A stretch of 64,000 bases of DNA from Luteithermobacter gelatinilyticus (GTDB taxonomy: Bacteria > Pseudomonadota > Alphaproteobacteria > Sphingomonadales > Emcibacteraceae). The notes below the pieces were generated by a model that saw only the letters and a program-made list of their open reading frames with translations, did no database searches and was not told the origin of the DNA. Location: contig NZ_CP040517.1 in the NCBI RefSeq assembly GCF_005849285.1, positions 1,866,501 through 1,930,500 on the forward strand, read 5' to 3'. Every line of letters starts with the position of its first letter. Within the stretch, counting starts at the first letter, position 1. The translations under genes were made by a program, and so were the position numbers. Positions 9,111-59,888 of the stretch are shown here, piece by piece.

Positions 9111-9126
9111 TGCTTTCCCGGGGGAA

Positions 9127-9173
9127 CTGTAAAACTTTTTTGCAAAACTGTCGGTAATTTTTACATTTTCCGG
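9127..9173 (+). promoter_or_regulatory. Candidate RpoN activator (PrsR-like) binding dyad, copy 1
   Basis: CTGTAAAA at 9127-9134 faces TTTTTACA at 9158-9165, with AAAACTGTCGG at 9144-9154 between them. The segment AAAACTGTCGG-nnn-TTTTTACA recurs almost unchanged at 56437-56458, also ahead of a sigma-54 promoter. It lies 75-113 bases upstream of the -24/-12 element, a normal enhancer distance. Assignment to PrsR is by analogy with other exosortase systems. Confidence 0.55.
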
Positions 9174-9239: not shown

Positions 9240-9254
9240 TGGCATATTTTTTGT
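9240..9254 (+). promoter_or_regulatory. Sigma-54 (-24/-12) promoter
   Basis: TGGCAT, five bases, then TTGT gives the spacing of the RpoN consensus TGGCAC-N5-TTGC with two mismatches. The predicted start of transcription is near 9265, about 145 bases before the ATG at 9411. Confidence 0.55.
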
Positions 9255-9410
9255 ATATCTCTGTTTTATGGTGTCTGTATCGACAGATTTTGAAAAGCAT
9301 AATCGCAAGACAGGTCCGATAAAAATACCGCTGGTCATCATAGTTTATTAACTATAAAATATTATGGTGACGGCTATAAAGGCTAACTCATTGATTATTT
9401 GAGATCTATT

Positions 9411-9674
9411 ATGGATGATAACAGTGATAAAGATGAAGAAGACCGTCTCTCCATGCGCCAATCCGTCATGATATGGATTGTCGGCGCAATTCTGGGATGG
9501 CTTGTCGCTGTTGCATCTGTATATACAGCACTCCGCGCCCCTGACAGCGACATCGCCTCTGACCAGCCCGCATCACAAAACGATGTTTCCCCCGAAGATG
9601 CCGAACGCGTGCAGGAAATCATGCCCGCTGCGGGATCGGACGAAAAAAAGAAACCTTCAAAAGATGACCCGTAA
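9411..9674 (+). CDS. Small single-pass membrane protein downstream of a sigma-54 promoter
   Basis: This 87-residue protein is not recognised. A short acidic N-terminus (D-D-N-S-D-K-D-E-E-D) is followed by one membrane helix (about 20-42, with I-V-G-A-I-L-G-W-L-V-A-V) and a hydrophilic tail rich in Asp, Lys, Ser and Pro ending K-K-P-S-K-D-D-P. The ATG at 9411 is used; a TTG at 9399 is less likely. It stands alone on the plus strand between phoB and the convergent protease gene. Its sigma-54 promoter and upstream dyad match those of the PEP-CTERM gene at 56576, so a role tied to the exosortase regulon is plausible but unproven. The protein itself has no PEP-CTERM. Confidence 0.6.
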   Translation: MDDNSDKDEEDRLSMRQSVMIWIVGAILGWLVAVASVYTALRAPDSDIASDQPASQNDVSPEDAERVQEIMPAAGSDEKKKPSKDDP

Positions 9675-10604: not shown

Positions 10605-12137
10605 TTATCGCACCAGTATATTGCGCAATTCTGGCAGATGATGAATTGCCCGTTGCAACTCCTGGCGCGCTTTTTCCAGCCCCCCATCCTCAATCGGAAT
10701 GGAAAAGGCCATAATGGCGGAATCCAGTCTCCCATTAAACAGTTTTGCCAGAGCGTCTTGAAGTTTCGCTTCATAAGCACTGGCCGTGATTTTATCATTC
10801 ACCCAATAGGCATACCATACAAGGCGGTTCCCCTGGCGGGAATGAAGCGTCACTTCGGCAAAAGGATAATCATTATCCCCGCGCTGAACCGTCACCCTTC
10901 GTCCTGACGTGCGGTTCCACATGGTCGGGGCGGCAACACCATTGCCATAACGGATCATCTCCTTGTCCCGAAACTGATACGCATAATACGCGATATATAG
11001 ATCCAGTTCCAGCCCGCTCCCATTCACGATTTTGCGAAATACTTCCCGGTCAGCGCCTTCAAAATAGGGCCGCCACTGCGTTGGCGGCGGCATATCTGTC
11101 CACCCCGGCAATACAATGTGATCCAGATGTCGGTCCGCGCTTTGCTGAGACAGCCTGTCTTCAATGTGGGCGCTATATAACGGTCCGACCATCAGAGCGG
11201 CCACGGACAGAGAAAGAACTCCGCCGACCCGGCCCCAGGAAACCGGGAAACGCGCCTTTTCCCAGAACGGCTTGTCAAAATCCGTATAGGGATCATTCAG
11301 GGCGCGGTTGGTAAAAGTCATGGAAATGGAAATAAAAATCACCAGGACAATGGCAAAAAACAGCCAGCCATAAACCAGGTGATCGGTGCCCACCGCATGT
11401 TTCATGCCGGAATAATACCCGATCAACACAATACCCGTGGCCCTGACGCCATTGGCGATCACCGGAACCGCAACAGAAAGCAGGACAACGATAATCTGCC
11501 GCCCTAGGGTCTTATAGGCAAGATTCGCCATAAGGAAGCCAAGCGCAATCGTGGCGATCAAAAACCTCAGCCCCGCGCAGGCTTCCGCCACATGAAACTT
11601 GCCGCCGGGAATGGTCAGAAATACGCCCTCCACATAAACCGGAATATCCAGAAGGTGAAGCGCCGCCACCACAAAATCCGTTGTAATATCCTGTAATGTG
11701 GGGATCAGGAATTCTCCTGTGGGAATTAAGAACAGCAAATAGAAAAAAGGAAACAAGAACGCTGCCACCACCCGGAGCCCAAAAACGGCCAGTATGCTCC
11801 CCTGAAGGGCAAGAATCAGGCCCGTCTGGCGCACCACATTGACATCAGCCAAGTCCCCCATCAGCCACACCGCCCCGGCCCCCAGAATCCAAAGCGTCCC
11901 CCAGAAACTGGCCTGCGGCACAATTTTCTGAAACGCCTCGCGACGTTCATAAACAACATAGCCAACAATCGGCAGGATCAGCAGACAATAATTATAATAG
12001 GGATCATACCACCAAAAATTGACCAGTTGGGTCACCGTGTCCCAGAACCCCCAAATCAGCAGAAGCACCAGGCCGGCCCACATCAATATGGCCCTGATCC
12101 AGTGATCCCTGTTCTCTACTGCAAATTCACGATTCAC
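10605..12137 (-). CDS. xrtA: Exosortase A fused to an EpsI domain
   Basis: XrtA is a polytopic membrane transpeptidase-like enzyme that recognises PEP-CTERM sorting signals. In the 510-residue form the catalytic triad is Cys187 (E-A-C-A-G-L-R), Arg232 (N-G-V-R-A-T-G) and His253 (D-H-L-V-Y-G-W), with about eight membrane helices before residue 290. The C-terminal part (from about 300) is the periplasmic EpsI (DUF3485) domain often fused to XrtA. I chose the GTG at 12137. An open frame continues upstream to 12290, but it crosses a 13-base tandem repeat that is not a multiple of three and encodes a basic tail lacking any family match. It is downstream of the FemAB-like gene in the EPS operon. 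Confidence 0.93.
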   Translation of the reverse strand: MNREFAVENRDHWIRAILMWAGLVLLLIWGFWDTVTQLVNFWWYDPYYNYCLLILPIVGYVVYERREAFQKIVPQASFWGTLWILGAGAVWLMGDLADVNVVRQTGLILALQGSILAVFGLRVVAAFLFPFFYLLFLIPTGEFLIPTLQDITTDFVVAALHLLDIPVYVEGVFLTIPGGKFHVAEACAGLRFLIATIALGFLMANLAYKTLGRQIIVVLLSVAVPVIANGVRATGIVLIGYYSGMKHAVGTDHLVYGWLFFAIVLVIFISISMTFTNRALNDPYTDFDKPFWEKARFPVSWGRVGGVLSLSVAALMVGPLYSAHIEDRLSQQSADRHLDHIVLPGWTDMPPPTQWRPYFEGADREVFRKIVNGSGLELDLYIAYYAYQFRDKEMIRYGNGVAAPTMWNRTSGRRVTVQRGDNDYPFAEVTLHSRQGNRLVWYAYWVNDKITASAYEAKLQDALAKLFNGRLDSAIMAFSIPIEDGGLEKARQELQRAIHHLPELRNILVR

Positions 12138-12193
12138 CCTTTTTCCCCATCCAATAAACCATGTCCGGCGGACGCTTTCCGTCCTACTGCTCC

Positions 12194-12232
12194 ATTTTTC
12201 TGGCCTATTTTTCTGGCCTATTTTTCTGGCCC
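12194..12232. repeat. Three tandem 13-base repeats upstream of xrtA
   Basis: The unit ATTTTTCTGGCCT occurs at 12194-12206 and 12207-12219, and as ATTTTTCTGGCCC at 12220-12232. Copy-number change would alter the leader between the FemAB-like gene and xrtA by a non-multiple of three. This supports a non-coding role and a downstream xrtA start. Confidence 0.75.
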
Positions 12233-12297
12233 ATTTTGCCTTCCCGTTTTCTCTCCCCTTCTGTTTTGGAGAAGACGGAGCCGCAAACACGGTGTCC

Positions 12298-55958: not shown

Positions 55959-56417
55959 ATGAAAGTCGCCGTACAAGCCGAAGACTTCCGCCTTGAAGAC
56001 GAAATCGCCCATCTGCGCGGGACACGGACGGACTTGGGGGCGCTGGTGACCTTTACCGGACTGGTACGGGACTTTCACGGGGAGCGCAAAATTCACCGCA
56101 TGACGCTGGAACATTTCCCCGGCATGGCGGAAAGGCAGTTGACAGAACTCGCCCACACGGCCATGAGACGCTGGGATCTCCAGGATGTCACCCTCATTCA
56201 CCGATACGGTTCCCTGGACGCCGGGGAACAAATTGTGTTGGTGATTACCGCCGCAGCTCACCGGCAAGCGGCGTTCGAGGCCGCCCAATTCCTGATGGAC
56301 TGGCTGAAGACCGATGCGCCCTTCTGGAAAAAGGAATATTCCGATCACGGTACAGAATGGGTAGAAAGCCGGGAAGAAGATACCAAAGCCCGCGAAAAAT
56401 GGCTGAAAAACCCGTAA
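55959..56417 (+). CDS. moaE: Molybdopterin synthase large subunit
   Basis: This 152-residue catalytic subunit transfers sulfur from MoaD to precursor Z. Family motifs are L-G-A-L-V-T-F-T-G-L-V-R-D, L-E-H-F-P-G-M-A-E, H-R-Y-G-S-L-D-A-G-E, V-V/I-T-A-A-A-H-R and W-K-K-E. The MoaD-MoaE pair implies molybdenum enzymes elsewhere in the genome. Confidence 0.95.
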   Translation: MKVAVQAEDFRLEDEIAHLRGTRTDLGALVTFTGLVRDFHGERKIHRMTLEHFPGMAERQLTELAHTAMRRWDLQDVTLIHRYGSLDAGEQIVLVITAAAHRQAAFEAAQFLMDWLKTDAPFWKKEYSDHGTEWVESREEDTKAREKWLKNP

Positions 56418-56432: not shown

Positions 56433-56465
56433 CTGTAAAACTGTCGGATTTTTTTACAGTTTTGA
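56433..56465 (+). promoter_or_regulatory. Candidate RpoN activator (PrsR-like) binding dyad, copy 2
   Basis: CTGTAAAA (56433-56440) and TTTTACAG (56452-56459) form a perfect 8-base inverted repeat. The sequence AAAACTGTCGG-nnn-TTTTTACA (56437-56458) matches the copy at 9144-9165. It lies 63 bases upstream of a sigma-54 promoter. Confidence 0.6.
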
Positions 56466-56521
56466 AACAACCCGACTTCCCCAAATACCTAATCCCCTGA
56501 TTCGAAACAACTATGCCCTTA

Positions 56522-56536
56522 TGGCATATTATTTGC
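56522..56536 (+). promoter_or_regulatory. Sigma-54 (-24/-12) promoter of the PEP-CTERM gene
   Basis: TGGCAT, five bases, TTGC: GG and GC are correctly spaced and only the sixth base deviates from consensus. The predicted transcript starts near 56547, giving a leader of about 28 bases with an AGGGGA ribosome binding site. Confidence 0.75.
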
Positions 56537-56575
56537 TTGTAAATACGGGCATACACTAGAAAAGGGGACTGCAAA

Positions 56576-56728
56576 ATGAAAACATTAATGACATCTATCG
56601 CCATTGTGGCAGCGTCCAGTGTTGCCGCCGTTGCCGGAGAAATTGTCAGGGTGCCTGAACCCGGAACATTTGGCATGTTTGCCGCGGCCATCGCCGCCGC
56701 CGTCATTGGCGCACGCCTGTTGAAATAA
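56576..56728 (+). CDS. 50-residue minimal PEP-CTERM protein (XrtA substrate)
   Basis: This short gene encodes a 20-residue signal peptide (M-K-T-L-M... ending V-A-A-V-A). Five residues (G-E-I-V-R) follow, then V-P-E-P-G-T-F-G-M at 26-34, a hydrophobic helix (35-46) and the basic end R-L-L-K. That order is the tripartite PEP-CTERM sorting signal recognised by exosortases. There is practically no passenger domain: XrtA cleavage near PEP would leave fewer than ten residues after the signal peptide. The gene is monocistronic, with its own sigma-54 promoter, upstream dyad and terminator. Its function is unknown. It is the only PEP-CTERM sequence visible in the window. Confidence 0.85.
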   Translation: MKTLMTSIAIVAASSVAAVAGEIVRVPEPGTFGMFAAAIAAAVIGARLLK

Positions 56729-56753
56729 AAATCGAGTTTTGTGAGGACACCTG

Positions 56754-56788
56754 TGAGCGGGACAGAATATTCCCGCTCAGTGTTTTTT
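56754..56788 (+). terminator. Rho-independent terminator of the PEP-CTERM gene
   Basis: TGAGCGGGA and TCCCGCTCA form a 9-base stem with an 8-base loop, followed by GTG and six T. It closes the unit 26 bases after the stop. Confidence 0.85.
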
Positions 56789-56934
56789 GTCCGACGGTTA
56801 TCCAGACCTGGAACAGGATCCTGTTTCAGGGTATTCTGGTGGCATAGTGTTCAGGACAAGGAATGGTATGCCCCACATGCCACCATGTCCCATATGCCAC
56901 AAGGAAACGATCAGGCATTATGTGAAAACCGGTG

Positions 56935-57852
56935 ATGGCTGACCTCTTGCATATCGAAAATCTAGGGCATATCGAAAACCTGGAACAGTTTCTGGCCGCC
57001 AGTTTTTTTGTTCTGCTGGCCCTTGCAGCGTTTTTGGAAAGTCTGATCCCCCTGCGCAAGAATGCCCTGCCCTTGCGGCAGCGCTGGCTGGGGAATTTCT
57101 CTCTCATGTTGCTGAACACCGCCATATTCCGCGGGCTTCTGCCCATGAGCGCCTTTGTTTTCGCCTTATATGTTCAGGAACACCATTGGGGGCTTTTCTC
57201 TGCCTTTCCCCTGTCGCCCTGGCTGAGCATTCTCATAACGGTCCTGCTGCATGATTTTGTCAAATATGCGCAGCACGTGCTGTTTCATCATGTCAGGGCG
57301 TGCTGGCGGTTTCATCTGGTCCACCATACGGACCAGGATTATGATTTCACTACCGGGTTGCGGTTTCACCCCCTCGAGGCGCTGGTGACCACGGCCAGCA
57401 CTTTTCTTGTCATTCTAGTCTTGGGACCGCCGGCGCTGGCGGTGATTGTTTTTGAATTCCTGACCATGTTCATCAATTTTTTAAGCCACACCAATATCCG
57501 GCTGAATGACCGCCTGGAACGGATATTGCGATTTGTCATTGTCACACCGAACATGCACCGGATCCACCATTCCGCCTGGGAGCCCGAAACCAACAGCAAT
57601 TATGCCGTGATTTTTTCCTTCTGGGACAAGATATTCGGAACCTATACCGCGCAGGCCCGGGAGGATCAAAAAGATATGATGGTCGGTCTTTATGAATATC
57701 GGGACCTCCAGGACCAGAATTTTTTCCGTATGCTGCTTCAACCTTTTCTGAAATTAAAACCCCGGCTTGAATTAAAACCTCAGTTTGGCGATGCGACGAA
57801 AAAAGCCACCAGACCTTCCTCCCTACCGGACACCACCCCGGATCTGCCCTGA
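56935..57852 (+). CDS. Sterol desaturase / fatty acid hydroxylase family protein
   Basis: This 305-residue membrane di-iron enzyme has histidine clusters H-D-F-V-K-Y-A-Q-H-V-L-F-H-H, H-L-V-H-H-T-D, and M-H-R-I-H-H-S. They match the fatty-acid-hydroxylase superfamily pattern HD..H...H, H..HH and H..HH. Four or so helices precede and separate them. The substrate (lipid, carotenoid or sterol-like) is not determined. The ATG at 56935 is chosen over the adjoining GTG at 56932. The last 35 residues are Lys- and Pro-rich. Confidence 0.87.
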   Translation: MADLLHIENLGHIENLEQFLAASFFVLLALAAFLESLIPLRKNALPLRQRWLGNFSLMLLNTAIFRGLLPMSAFVFALYVQEHHWGLFSAFPLSPWLSILITVLLHDFVKYAQHVLFHHVRACWRFHLVHHTDQDYDFTTGLRFHPLEALVTTASTFLVILVLGPPALAVIVFEFLTMFINFLSHTNIRLNDRLERILRFVIVTPNMHRIHHSAWEPETNSNYAVIFSFWDKIFGTYTAQAREDQKDMMVGLYEYRDLQDQNFFRMLLQPFLKLKPRLELKPQFGDATKKATRPSSLPDTTPDLP

Positions 57853-58193: not shown

Positions 58194-59888
58194 ATGAGCA
58201 CCTCTGTAAAACACCTTCTTGCTTCTGTTTCTCTTGCAAGCTGTCTGTTCCTTGCTGGCTGCGGGCAAAATGACACCACATCGCAAAACTCTTCTACAGA
58301 CGCCCCGCAGGAAAAACATCAGCTAGAGTGGGTTTCTGCCGAAGCCGAAAAACGGGCGGATATTTACGCGCCCTATACCCTGCAGGCTGACCTGTCCCAC
58401 CTGAGTGATAATCAGCGTAAAATGATCGGCCTGTTGATTGAGGCGTCCCAGATCATGGACAACCTGTTCTGGTTGCAGGCTTATGGCGATAAAAACAAAC
58501 TTCTTGATGGCCTGGAAGACGGCAAACTGAAACATTTCATTGAACTGAATTACGGACCGTGGGACCGCCTTGATGGCGACAAGCCGTTTATCAAGGGCGT
58601 TAAGGACAAGCCACTCGGCGCCCGGTTTTATCCCGAAGACATGACCAAGGAGGAATTCGAAGCCTTTGAGCATACGGACAAACGGGGGCTTTATTCCCTG
58701 GTCCGGCGCGAGGAAGACGGGAGTCTTAAACTTGTCCCCTACCATGATGCCTTTGCCGCCGATCTGCAAAAAGCCGCCGGACTGCTGAGGGAGGCCGCCA
58801 AATATGCGGATCACGACAGGTTCAGGGAATATCTGAAGCTCCGGGCGGACGCGCTGGAAACCGATAACTACCAACCCAGCGACATGGCCTGGATGGACAT
58901 GAAAACCAATCCCATCGAATTGGTTATCGGCGCCATTGAAACCTATGAAGACCAGCTTTATGGCTATCGCGCGGCCTATGAATCCTATGTCCTGATCAAG
59001 GATATGGCCTGGAGCGAACGGTTGAGCAAATATGCCGCTTTCCTACCCGAACTGCAAAAAGGGCTTCCCGTGCCTGCGGAATACAAAGCCGAAATGCCGG
59101 GCACAGAGTCCGATCTTAATGCCTATGATGTGGTCTATTACGCCGGGCACAGCAATGCAGGCTCCAAAACCATCGCCATCAACCTGCCCAATGATGAAGA
59201 GGTGCAGTTGAAAAAAGGCACCCGGCGGCTGCAGCTGAAAAACGCCATGAAGGCCAAATTCGACAAGATCATGTTGCCCATTGCTGATGAGCTGATTGTG
59301 CCGGAACAGCGCCAGCACGTCACGTTCCCGGCCTTTTTCGCCAACACTATGTTCCATGAAGTGGCCCATGGCCTGGGCATCAAAAACACTCTGACCGGCA
59401 AAGGCACGGTGCGGACGGCCCTGAAAGAAACCGCGTCCGCCCTGGAAGAAGGCAAGGCCGATATTCTGGGTCTGTATATGGTGACCCGCCTTCATGAAAA
59501 AGGAGAACTGGAAGACGGCGAACTGATGGATTATTATACCACCTTCCTTGCTGGCATCTTCCGGTCCGTGCGTTTCGGCGCCAGCAGCGCCCACGGCCGG
59601 GCCAATATGGTGCGGTTTAATTATTTTAAAGAAATGGGCGCCTTTGAACGCAACCAAGAAGGCCAATACAAAGTCAACTTCGAGAACTTTCAAAAAGCGA
59701 TGACCAACCTCAGCACGCTGATTTTGACCTTGCAGGGGAACGGCGATTATGAAGGAGCCAAGGCCCTGTTGGCGGAAAAAGGTGTCGTGGGGGATGACCT
59801 GGCCGAAGACCTGAACCGCCTGGCCCAGTCCAATATTCCCGTAGATGTCTATTTCATCCAGGGTAAAGATGTCCTCGGGCTACAATAA
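58194..59888 (+). CDS. Lipoprotein metallopeptidase, M49 (dipeptidyl-peptidase III)-like
   Basis: This 564-residue protein has a lipoprotein signal (F-L-A-G-C, Cys23) and is probably anchored in the outer membrane or periplasm. The zinc site is H-E-V-A-H-G (His388, Glu389, His392), with a second motif E-E-G-K-A-D about 36 residues later. Gly/Tyr-rich regions Y-Y-A-G-H-S-N-A-G and S-V-R-F-G-A-S-S-A-H-G match bacterial M49-type proteins. Classical DPP III has a six-residue HExxGH; this one has the ordinary five-residue HExxH. A structured leader precedes it and a hairpin follows. Confidence 0.8.
   Translation: MSTSVKHLLASVSLASCLFLAGCGQNDTTSQNSSTDAPQEKHQLEWVSAEAEKRADIYAPYTLQADLSHLSDNQRKMIGLLIEASQIMDNLFWLQAYGDKNKLLDGLEDGKLKHFIELNYGPWDRLDGDKPFIKGVKDKPLGARFYPEDMTKEEFEAFEHTDKRGLYSLVRREEDGSLKLVPYHDAFAADLQKAAGLLREAAKYADHDRFREYLKLRADALETDNYQPSDMAWMDMKTNPIELVIGAIETYEDQLYGYRAAYESYVLIKDMAWSERLSKYAAFLPELQKGLPVPAEYKAEMPGTESDLNAYDVVYYAGHSNAGSKTIAINLPNDEEVQLKKGTRRLQLKNAMKAKFDKIMLPIADELIVPEQRQHVTFPAFFANTMFHEVAHGLGIKNTLTGKGTVRTALKETASALEEGKADILGLYMVTRLHEKGELEDGELMDYYTTFLAGIFRSVRFGASSAHGRANMVRFNYFKEMGAFERNQEGQYKVNFENFQKAMTNLSTLILTLQGNGDYEGAKALLAEKGVVGDDLAEDLNRLAQSNIPVDVYFIQGKDVLGLQ

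Follow-up and report, generated by a model that had tools for sequence, protein, structure and literature searches.

A minimal PEP-CTERM gene and its membrane hydroxylase neighbour in Luteithermobacter gelatinilyticus and other Proteobacteria

Luteithermobacter gelatinilyticus carries a gene for a very short PEP-CTERM protein, made of almost nothing but a sorting signal, directly ahead of a gene for a membrane hydroxylase, and the same pair recurs in other Alpha- and Gammaproteobacteria. Judged from sequence, there is good support for the mini gene itself and its promoter unit, for its place in a regulon, for its conservation and for its pairing with the hydroxylase. PEP-CTERM proteins are regarded as targets of exosortase cleavage, and our leading, still tentative reading makes the mini protein a minimal substrate for one such enzyme, XrtA, within a conserved module of two genes whose other member is the hydroxylase. 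Positions are those of the window, that is, the whole stretch of 64,000 nucleotides that was analysed (contig NZ_CP040517.1, 1,866,501 to 1,930,500).

The mini gene and its regulon

The predicted protein consists of MKTLMTSIAIVAASSVAAVA, the linker GEIVRV, the PEP motif and GTFGMFAAAIAAAVIGARLLK. Its layout is exactly that given in the preliminary description, with a predicted signal peptide of 20 residues, five linker residues and then V-P-E-P-G (the valine is counted with the linker in Table 1). The signal peptide is clear in composition, its AVA/G site being read by motif, and the protein exceeds the curated cut-offs of both PF07589 (22.9 bits, cut-off 20.7) and TIGR02595 (16.4 bits, cut-off 16). 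The hydrophobic helix and basic tail described earlier are there, the basic end (GARLLK) being weak. The gene for XrtA sits in an exopolysaccharide locus that extends from 10.6 to 20.1 kb of the window.

Table 1. Features of the mini gene, its surroundings and the exosortase gene (window positions)
Feature	Position	Strand	Detail or basis
XrtA exosortase fused to EpsI domain	10605-12290	-	TIGR03109 309 bits (cut-off 208), PF09721 233 bits
moaE, upstream neighbour	55959-56417	+	shared with three relatives of this bacterial family
Activator dyad AACTGTCGGATTTTTTTACAGTT, PrsR-type motif 1	56439-56461	+	AACTGT-n11-ACAGTT
Core TGTC-N9-TACA of activator dyad	56442-56458	+	genome-wide pattern search
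Sigma-54 (-24/-12) promoter TGGCATATTATTTGCT	56522-56537	+	match to consensus TGGCAYRNNNNTTGCW
Ribosome binding site AGGGGA	56563-56568	+	sequence
Mini PEP-CTERM gene	56576-56728	+	50 aa
Predicted signal peptide	56576-56635	+	20 aa, cleavage after AVA, read from sequence motif
Linker GEIVRV	56636-56653	+	6 aa, sole non-signal part of the mini protein
PEP motif, hydrophobic helix and short basic end (PEP-CTERM)	56654-56725	+	PF07589 score
Intrinsic terminator (56754-56779) and T-run	56754-56789	+	between mini gene and hydroxylase gene
FA_hydroxylase-family (PF04116) membrane protein, partner gene	56935-57852	+	directly downstream of mini gene

For PEP-CTERM genes, Haft et al. 2006 (PMC1569441) reported motif 1 and motif 2 upstream, and they suggested PrsR as the activator. 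Accordingly, the "complete sigma-54 unit" of the preliminary description, with its dyad, promoter, ribosome binding site and terminator, is present in all its parts (the RNA fold of the terminator has -17.3 kcal/mol and a z of -4.1), but it is the standard unit of PEP-CTERM genes (PMC1569441) rather than a special one. The promoter shows 0 mismatches to TGGCAYRNNNNTTGCW, and no second site in the window is perfect; in the 3.15-Mb genome, perfect -24/-12 sites number 17, whereas the reversed pattern used as a control gives 1. The TGTC-N9-TACA core is found 6 times in the window, where 0.75 would be expected, and ahead of the mini gene it starts 80 bp before the start of the promoter. Nine PEP-CTERM genes of the genome were scored, with TGT[CT] allowed in the core and a weak family match (L010, 15.5 bits) left aside, and all nine have both the core and a -24/-12-like site upstream; the start-to-start spacing is 80 bp in five of them, the mini gene included, and 68, 93, 102 and 102 bp in the rest. 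PrsR (703.7 bits) and PrsK (673.3 bits) are encoded next to each other at 1.167-1.170 Mb. Membership of the mini gene in a PrsR/sigma-54 regulon of PEP-CTERM genes, as predicted from these elements, is well supported.

Three further sites of this kind were seen. A second PrsR-type dyad, TGTCGGTAATTTTTACA, lies together with a half copy just upstream of it at 9126-9168, next to the XrtA locus. Downstream comes a -24/-12-like site (TGGCATATTTTTTGTA, 9240-9255) whose -12 element is damaged, and behind this an 87-residue single-helix protein of no known family has its ATG at 9411. A third dyad, TGTCGGAATAATTTACA, and TGGCCCCTATTTTGCA about 79 bp further (1296-1201 for the two, minus strand) stand before a 137-residue exported-looking protein (1089-676, minus strand) that has an RRRLLK-type leader and no family match; the gene after it belongs to the HPr-rel-A system PqqD family (TIGR04353, 49.7 bits). 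This 137-residue protein is a possible regulon member without PEP-CTERM. Another possible one is a 126-residue protein at locus L074 (G000:C1, about 2393480, minus strand), whose end resembles a Sel1/TPR repeat and which is preceded by a near-motif-1 site, AAATGTTAAAAAATGTTACAGTT, and by TGGCCTGTGATTTGCT.

Conservation and pairing of the two genes

When the 50-residue query was searched against 60 relatives, short proteins 48-57% identical to it were found in three genomes of its own family, one of which carries two tandem mini genes, and weaker short matches appeared in other families of the same order. The homologous short frames reach E values of 2e-9 to 1e-6, and the mini proteins of relatives measure 50-61 residues. 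Profile searches of 385 genomes of the class and 398 of the phylum added more mini genes, including two from Gammaproteobacteria (G792 and G822, a class assignment inferred from search level and gene content). Over three pairs of sequences, 27.5 synonymous changes stand against 21.5 nonsynonymous ones, with 28% synonymous expected (binomial p 5e-5), and the dN/dS of about 0.25-0.3 in these pairs points to purifying selection. Since homologous short frames occur in relatives and synonymous change is in excess, the mini gene is more than a product of chance. The check proposed earlier, conservation of the short frame in relatives, was run and turned up homologues in the family, order, class and phylum searches; together with the two family cut-offs passed, this bears out the view of a real gene that is almost nothing but a sorting signal.

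Within the mini proteins, conservation is uneven. The linker before the PEP-type motif, as counted from AxA-type cleavage sites assigned by eye, comprises 6-9 residues in all 16 proteins compared, while its residues differ even between close relatives (GSPNSTAV versus GAPQGPTTV). The PEP sorting motif is almost invariant, and the membrane segment is conserved within the family of L. gelatinilyticus. Two kinds of match were rejected: those of G048 and G053 (VPEGSS) form a separate family without the hydroxylase, and that of G487 is broken by an in-frame stop ahead of the motif, apparently through decay.

In 13 genomes of Alpha- and Gammaproteobacteria, a PF04116 gene is immediately preceded by one to three mini genes; these genomes are that of L. 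gelatinilyticus, G007, G010, G028, G040, G046, G051, G430, G264, G348, G211, G792 and G822 (two copies in G007, G040 and G046, three in G348). The two genes are mostly separated by a few tens of bases or overlap. A hydroxylase gene lies within about 1.5 kb at 7 of 10 short PEP-CTERM loci, as opposed to 0 of 56 loci with frames longer than 120 residues, these controls being drawn from the same searches as the mini genes (p 1.5e-7, or 1e-6 without the locus of L. gelatinilyticus). From the other side, 80 ordinary hydroxylases, obtained by scanning genome contigs with the hydroxylase alignment, yielded only one true mini gene upstream, on the G040 contig that was already known, in an automated screen whose two further matches are not PEP-CTERM proteins. 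The preliminary description gave the gene its own promoter and terminator and overlooked the FA_hydroxylase partner downstream.

In the family of L. gelatinilyticus, the order is uvrC, pgsA, moaD, moaE, mini gene, hydroxylase and M49 peptidase wherever the contig extends far enough. Outside this family the surroundings vary, so that the pair itself appears to be the conserved unit. The M49-type peptidase, which is lipoprotein-like (58194-59888), adjoins the module and is kept there in this family only.

An exosortase is present in 11 of the 13 module genomes and a complete promoter pair lies upstream of the mini gene at 9 of the 13 loci. Several observations count against our leading reading. 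Searches for an exosortase found none in G051 (81% complete) and G430 (95%), both of them assemblies in hundreds of contigs; four of the 13 module loci have no recognisable complete promoter pair; in L. gelatinilyticus itself a terminator and about 200 bp separate the two genes; and short PEP-CTERM-like genes without a hydroxylase neighbour exist (the G048/G053 type, G077 and G483). A full-text literature search found no paper combining PEP-CTERM with "sterol desaturase" or "fatty acid hydroxylase".

The hydroxylase and two exceptional loci

Enzymes of the PF04116 family act on lipids. The partner protein scores 103 bits against this model (cut-off 31), its histidine boxes HxxxH, HxxHH and HxxHH are all intact, and H114, H118, H127, H130, H131, H208, H211 and H212 are invariant in an alignment of six paired enzymes. 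We therefore regard it as an enzyme of the FA_hydroxylase (sterol desaturase/OlsE-like) superfamily that probably has a lipid-type substrate. Its nearest NCBIfam model is the ornithine-lipid hydroxylase OlsE (NF052566), which adds a hydroxyl group to a lipid in its amino-acid headgroup (PMC3972451); the two share the PF04116 superfamily, but the partner, at 86 bits, falls so far below the OlsE cut-off of 475 that it is not OlsE itself. An AlphaFold model of the partner, for which six sequences were used, was of poor quality (pLDDT 68), and comparing it with the PDB brought no meaningful match.

In a phylogenetic tree, 60 of 60 sampled unpaired hydroxylases form one clade (SH-aLRT 98), which takes in those hydroxylases that occur as a second copy beside a paired enzyme in one genome. 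None of the 11 paired enzymes in the tree belongs to this clade, nor do that of G044 and the truncated one of G008; the exact placement of the paired enzymes is unsure because several of them have long branches.

The last two loci deserve separate mention. In G044 (L249, C133), three genes stand in a row on one strand: that of a 57-residue mini protein, then one for a hydroxylase and, overlapping the latter, one for an exosortase-EpsI protein. Here the mini protein combines a signal peptide with TPVSGG, a C-terminal signal of a non-PEP kind whose nearest model is PID-CTERM (19 versus 26 bits). The exosortase of the row scores 151 bits, below the XrtA cut-off of 208, and G044 has a separate true XrtA, so the row looks like a dedicated set. 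In G008 (L244, C11), a genome that possesses XrtA, moaE and the activator dyad are kept while the promoter, the mini gene and the N-terminus of the hydroxylase are gone; the locus is apparently a relic of the module left by a single deletion.

Candidate functions of the module

The fate of exosortase-processed proteins in Gram-negative bacteria has been a standing question since 2006, and we know of no acceptor established for them. With the mini protein as minimal XrtA substrate, PrsK/PrsR and sigma-54 would turn on its gene along with the other PEP-CTERM genes, and Sec would export the product, with removal of the signal peptide. XrtA would then cut at the PEP motif and hand on what is left, a short peptide; the acceptor would most likely be a membrane lipid, as with the archaeosortase, and the paired di-iron hydroxylase would modify that lipid or the peptide's own headgroup. 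XrtA cleavage, the lipid acceptor and the target of hydroxylation are what we infer here. The idea of a minimal carrier for a lipid, raised in the preliminary description, may hold and is favoured by the hydroxylase partner.

Known systems offer partial likenesses. The mini protein has its C-terminal signal and a predicted signal peptide in common with the XrtA PEP-CTERM proteins under PrsK/PrsR/sigma-54 control (Haft 2006; TIGR02595, PF07589), and its gene likewise stands singly behind motif 1 and a -24/-12 site, in a genome with XrtA and PrsR/PrsK. It differs from the usual members in having no passenger, with 6-9 residues between signal peptide and PEP, and in its constant partner gene. The RpoN-dependent PEP-CTERM gene of PepA (NF033554), which is required for floc formation in a flocculating Aquincola (PMC9850573), is comparable in its regulation; however, the PepA model has 261 positions and the neighbouring gene is prsT, not a hydroxylase gene. 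In length, the mini proteins approach the PExPT-CTERM model for targets of XrtJ (TIGR04200, 57 positions), though exosortase and motif are different ones; one module protein of G040 reaches 16.5 bits where the cut-off is 40, and the mini protein of L. gelatinilyticus gave no match to this model at E 1. Finally, archaeosortase ArtA, which depends on PssA and PssD, lipid-synthesis enzymes that were found through gene neighbourhood, attaches a lipid to the C-termini of the proteins it cuts (PMC7157517). It thus resembles the module as a sortase of the exosortase/archaeosortase family tied by neighbourhood to lipid enzymes, whereas the ArtA system is archaeal and has a PGF motif, other lipid enzymes and large substrates.

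The main rival explanation, which we consider possible if on the unlikely side, sees the mini protein as a tiny membrane partner that stabilises, places or regulates the hydroxylase, either as two helices with a short periplasmic loop or as one helix after signal cleavage. A cut by XrtA would then remove or free the mini protein, and the hydroxylase would work on ordinary envelope lipids. Such a subunit would agree with a constant size and an unconserved linker, with the membrane segment conserved in the family, with the tight operon at most loci and with the loss en bloc of the mini gene and the hydroxylase N-terminus in G008, but it would have no need of a near-invariant PEP motif or of an exosortase-substrate regulon, and the exosortase that joins the row in G044 also speaks against it. 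Another suggestion of the preliminary description, a decoy that occupies XrtA and tunes the processing of the larger PEP-CTERM proteins in the regulon, seems improbable: activator and promoter geometry do equal those of the larger substrates, and tandem copies would increase the dose, yet the constant link to one specific family of neighbouring enzyme is left unexplained. Even less probable is the earlier idea of a precursor whose released peptide is sensed as a signal. The product is predicted to be secreted, is very short and has a cut site; nevertheless, a sequence-specific signalling peptide is unsupported, because the linker keeps its length but not its sequence among close relatives, and no receptor gene is conserved alongside the mini gene. 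A chance frame, or the decayed remnant of a longer PEP-CTERM gene, might be suspected where family cut-offs are only just exceeded, but we reject this in view of conservation and selection (constant size in 13 genomes of two classes, the dN/dS value, tandem copies, intact promoter and terminator).

On the best reading, the mini protein is a minimal exosortase substrate that works with a lipid-type hydroxylase, serving either as the peptide put on a hydroxylated lipid or as a small partner of the enzyme. The pairing suggests that exosortase surface sorting also includes the production or use of a chemically modified lipid. A bolder version, which we hold to be doubtful, is a lipopeptide branch in which the exosortase would couple a genome-encoded peptide of 6-12 residues with a membrane lipid, and the coupled product would be oxidised by the dedicated hydroxylase. 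If this were true, these bacteria would have a surface lipid with a ribosomal-peptide headgroup, whose output would track exopolysaccharide control. Given the small size of the mini protein, whole-molecule mass spectrometry could read the cut site and the attached group directly. A conserved, lipid-enzyme-like neighbour of the smallest possible substrate is a concrete lead, comparable to the artA-pssA neighbourhood for the archaeosortase.
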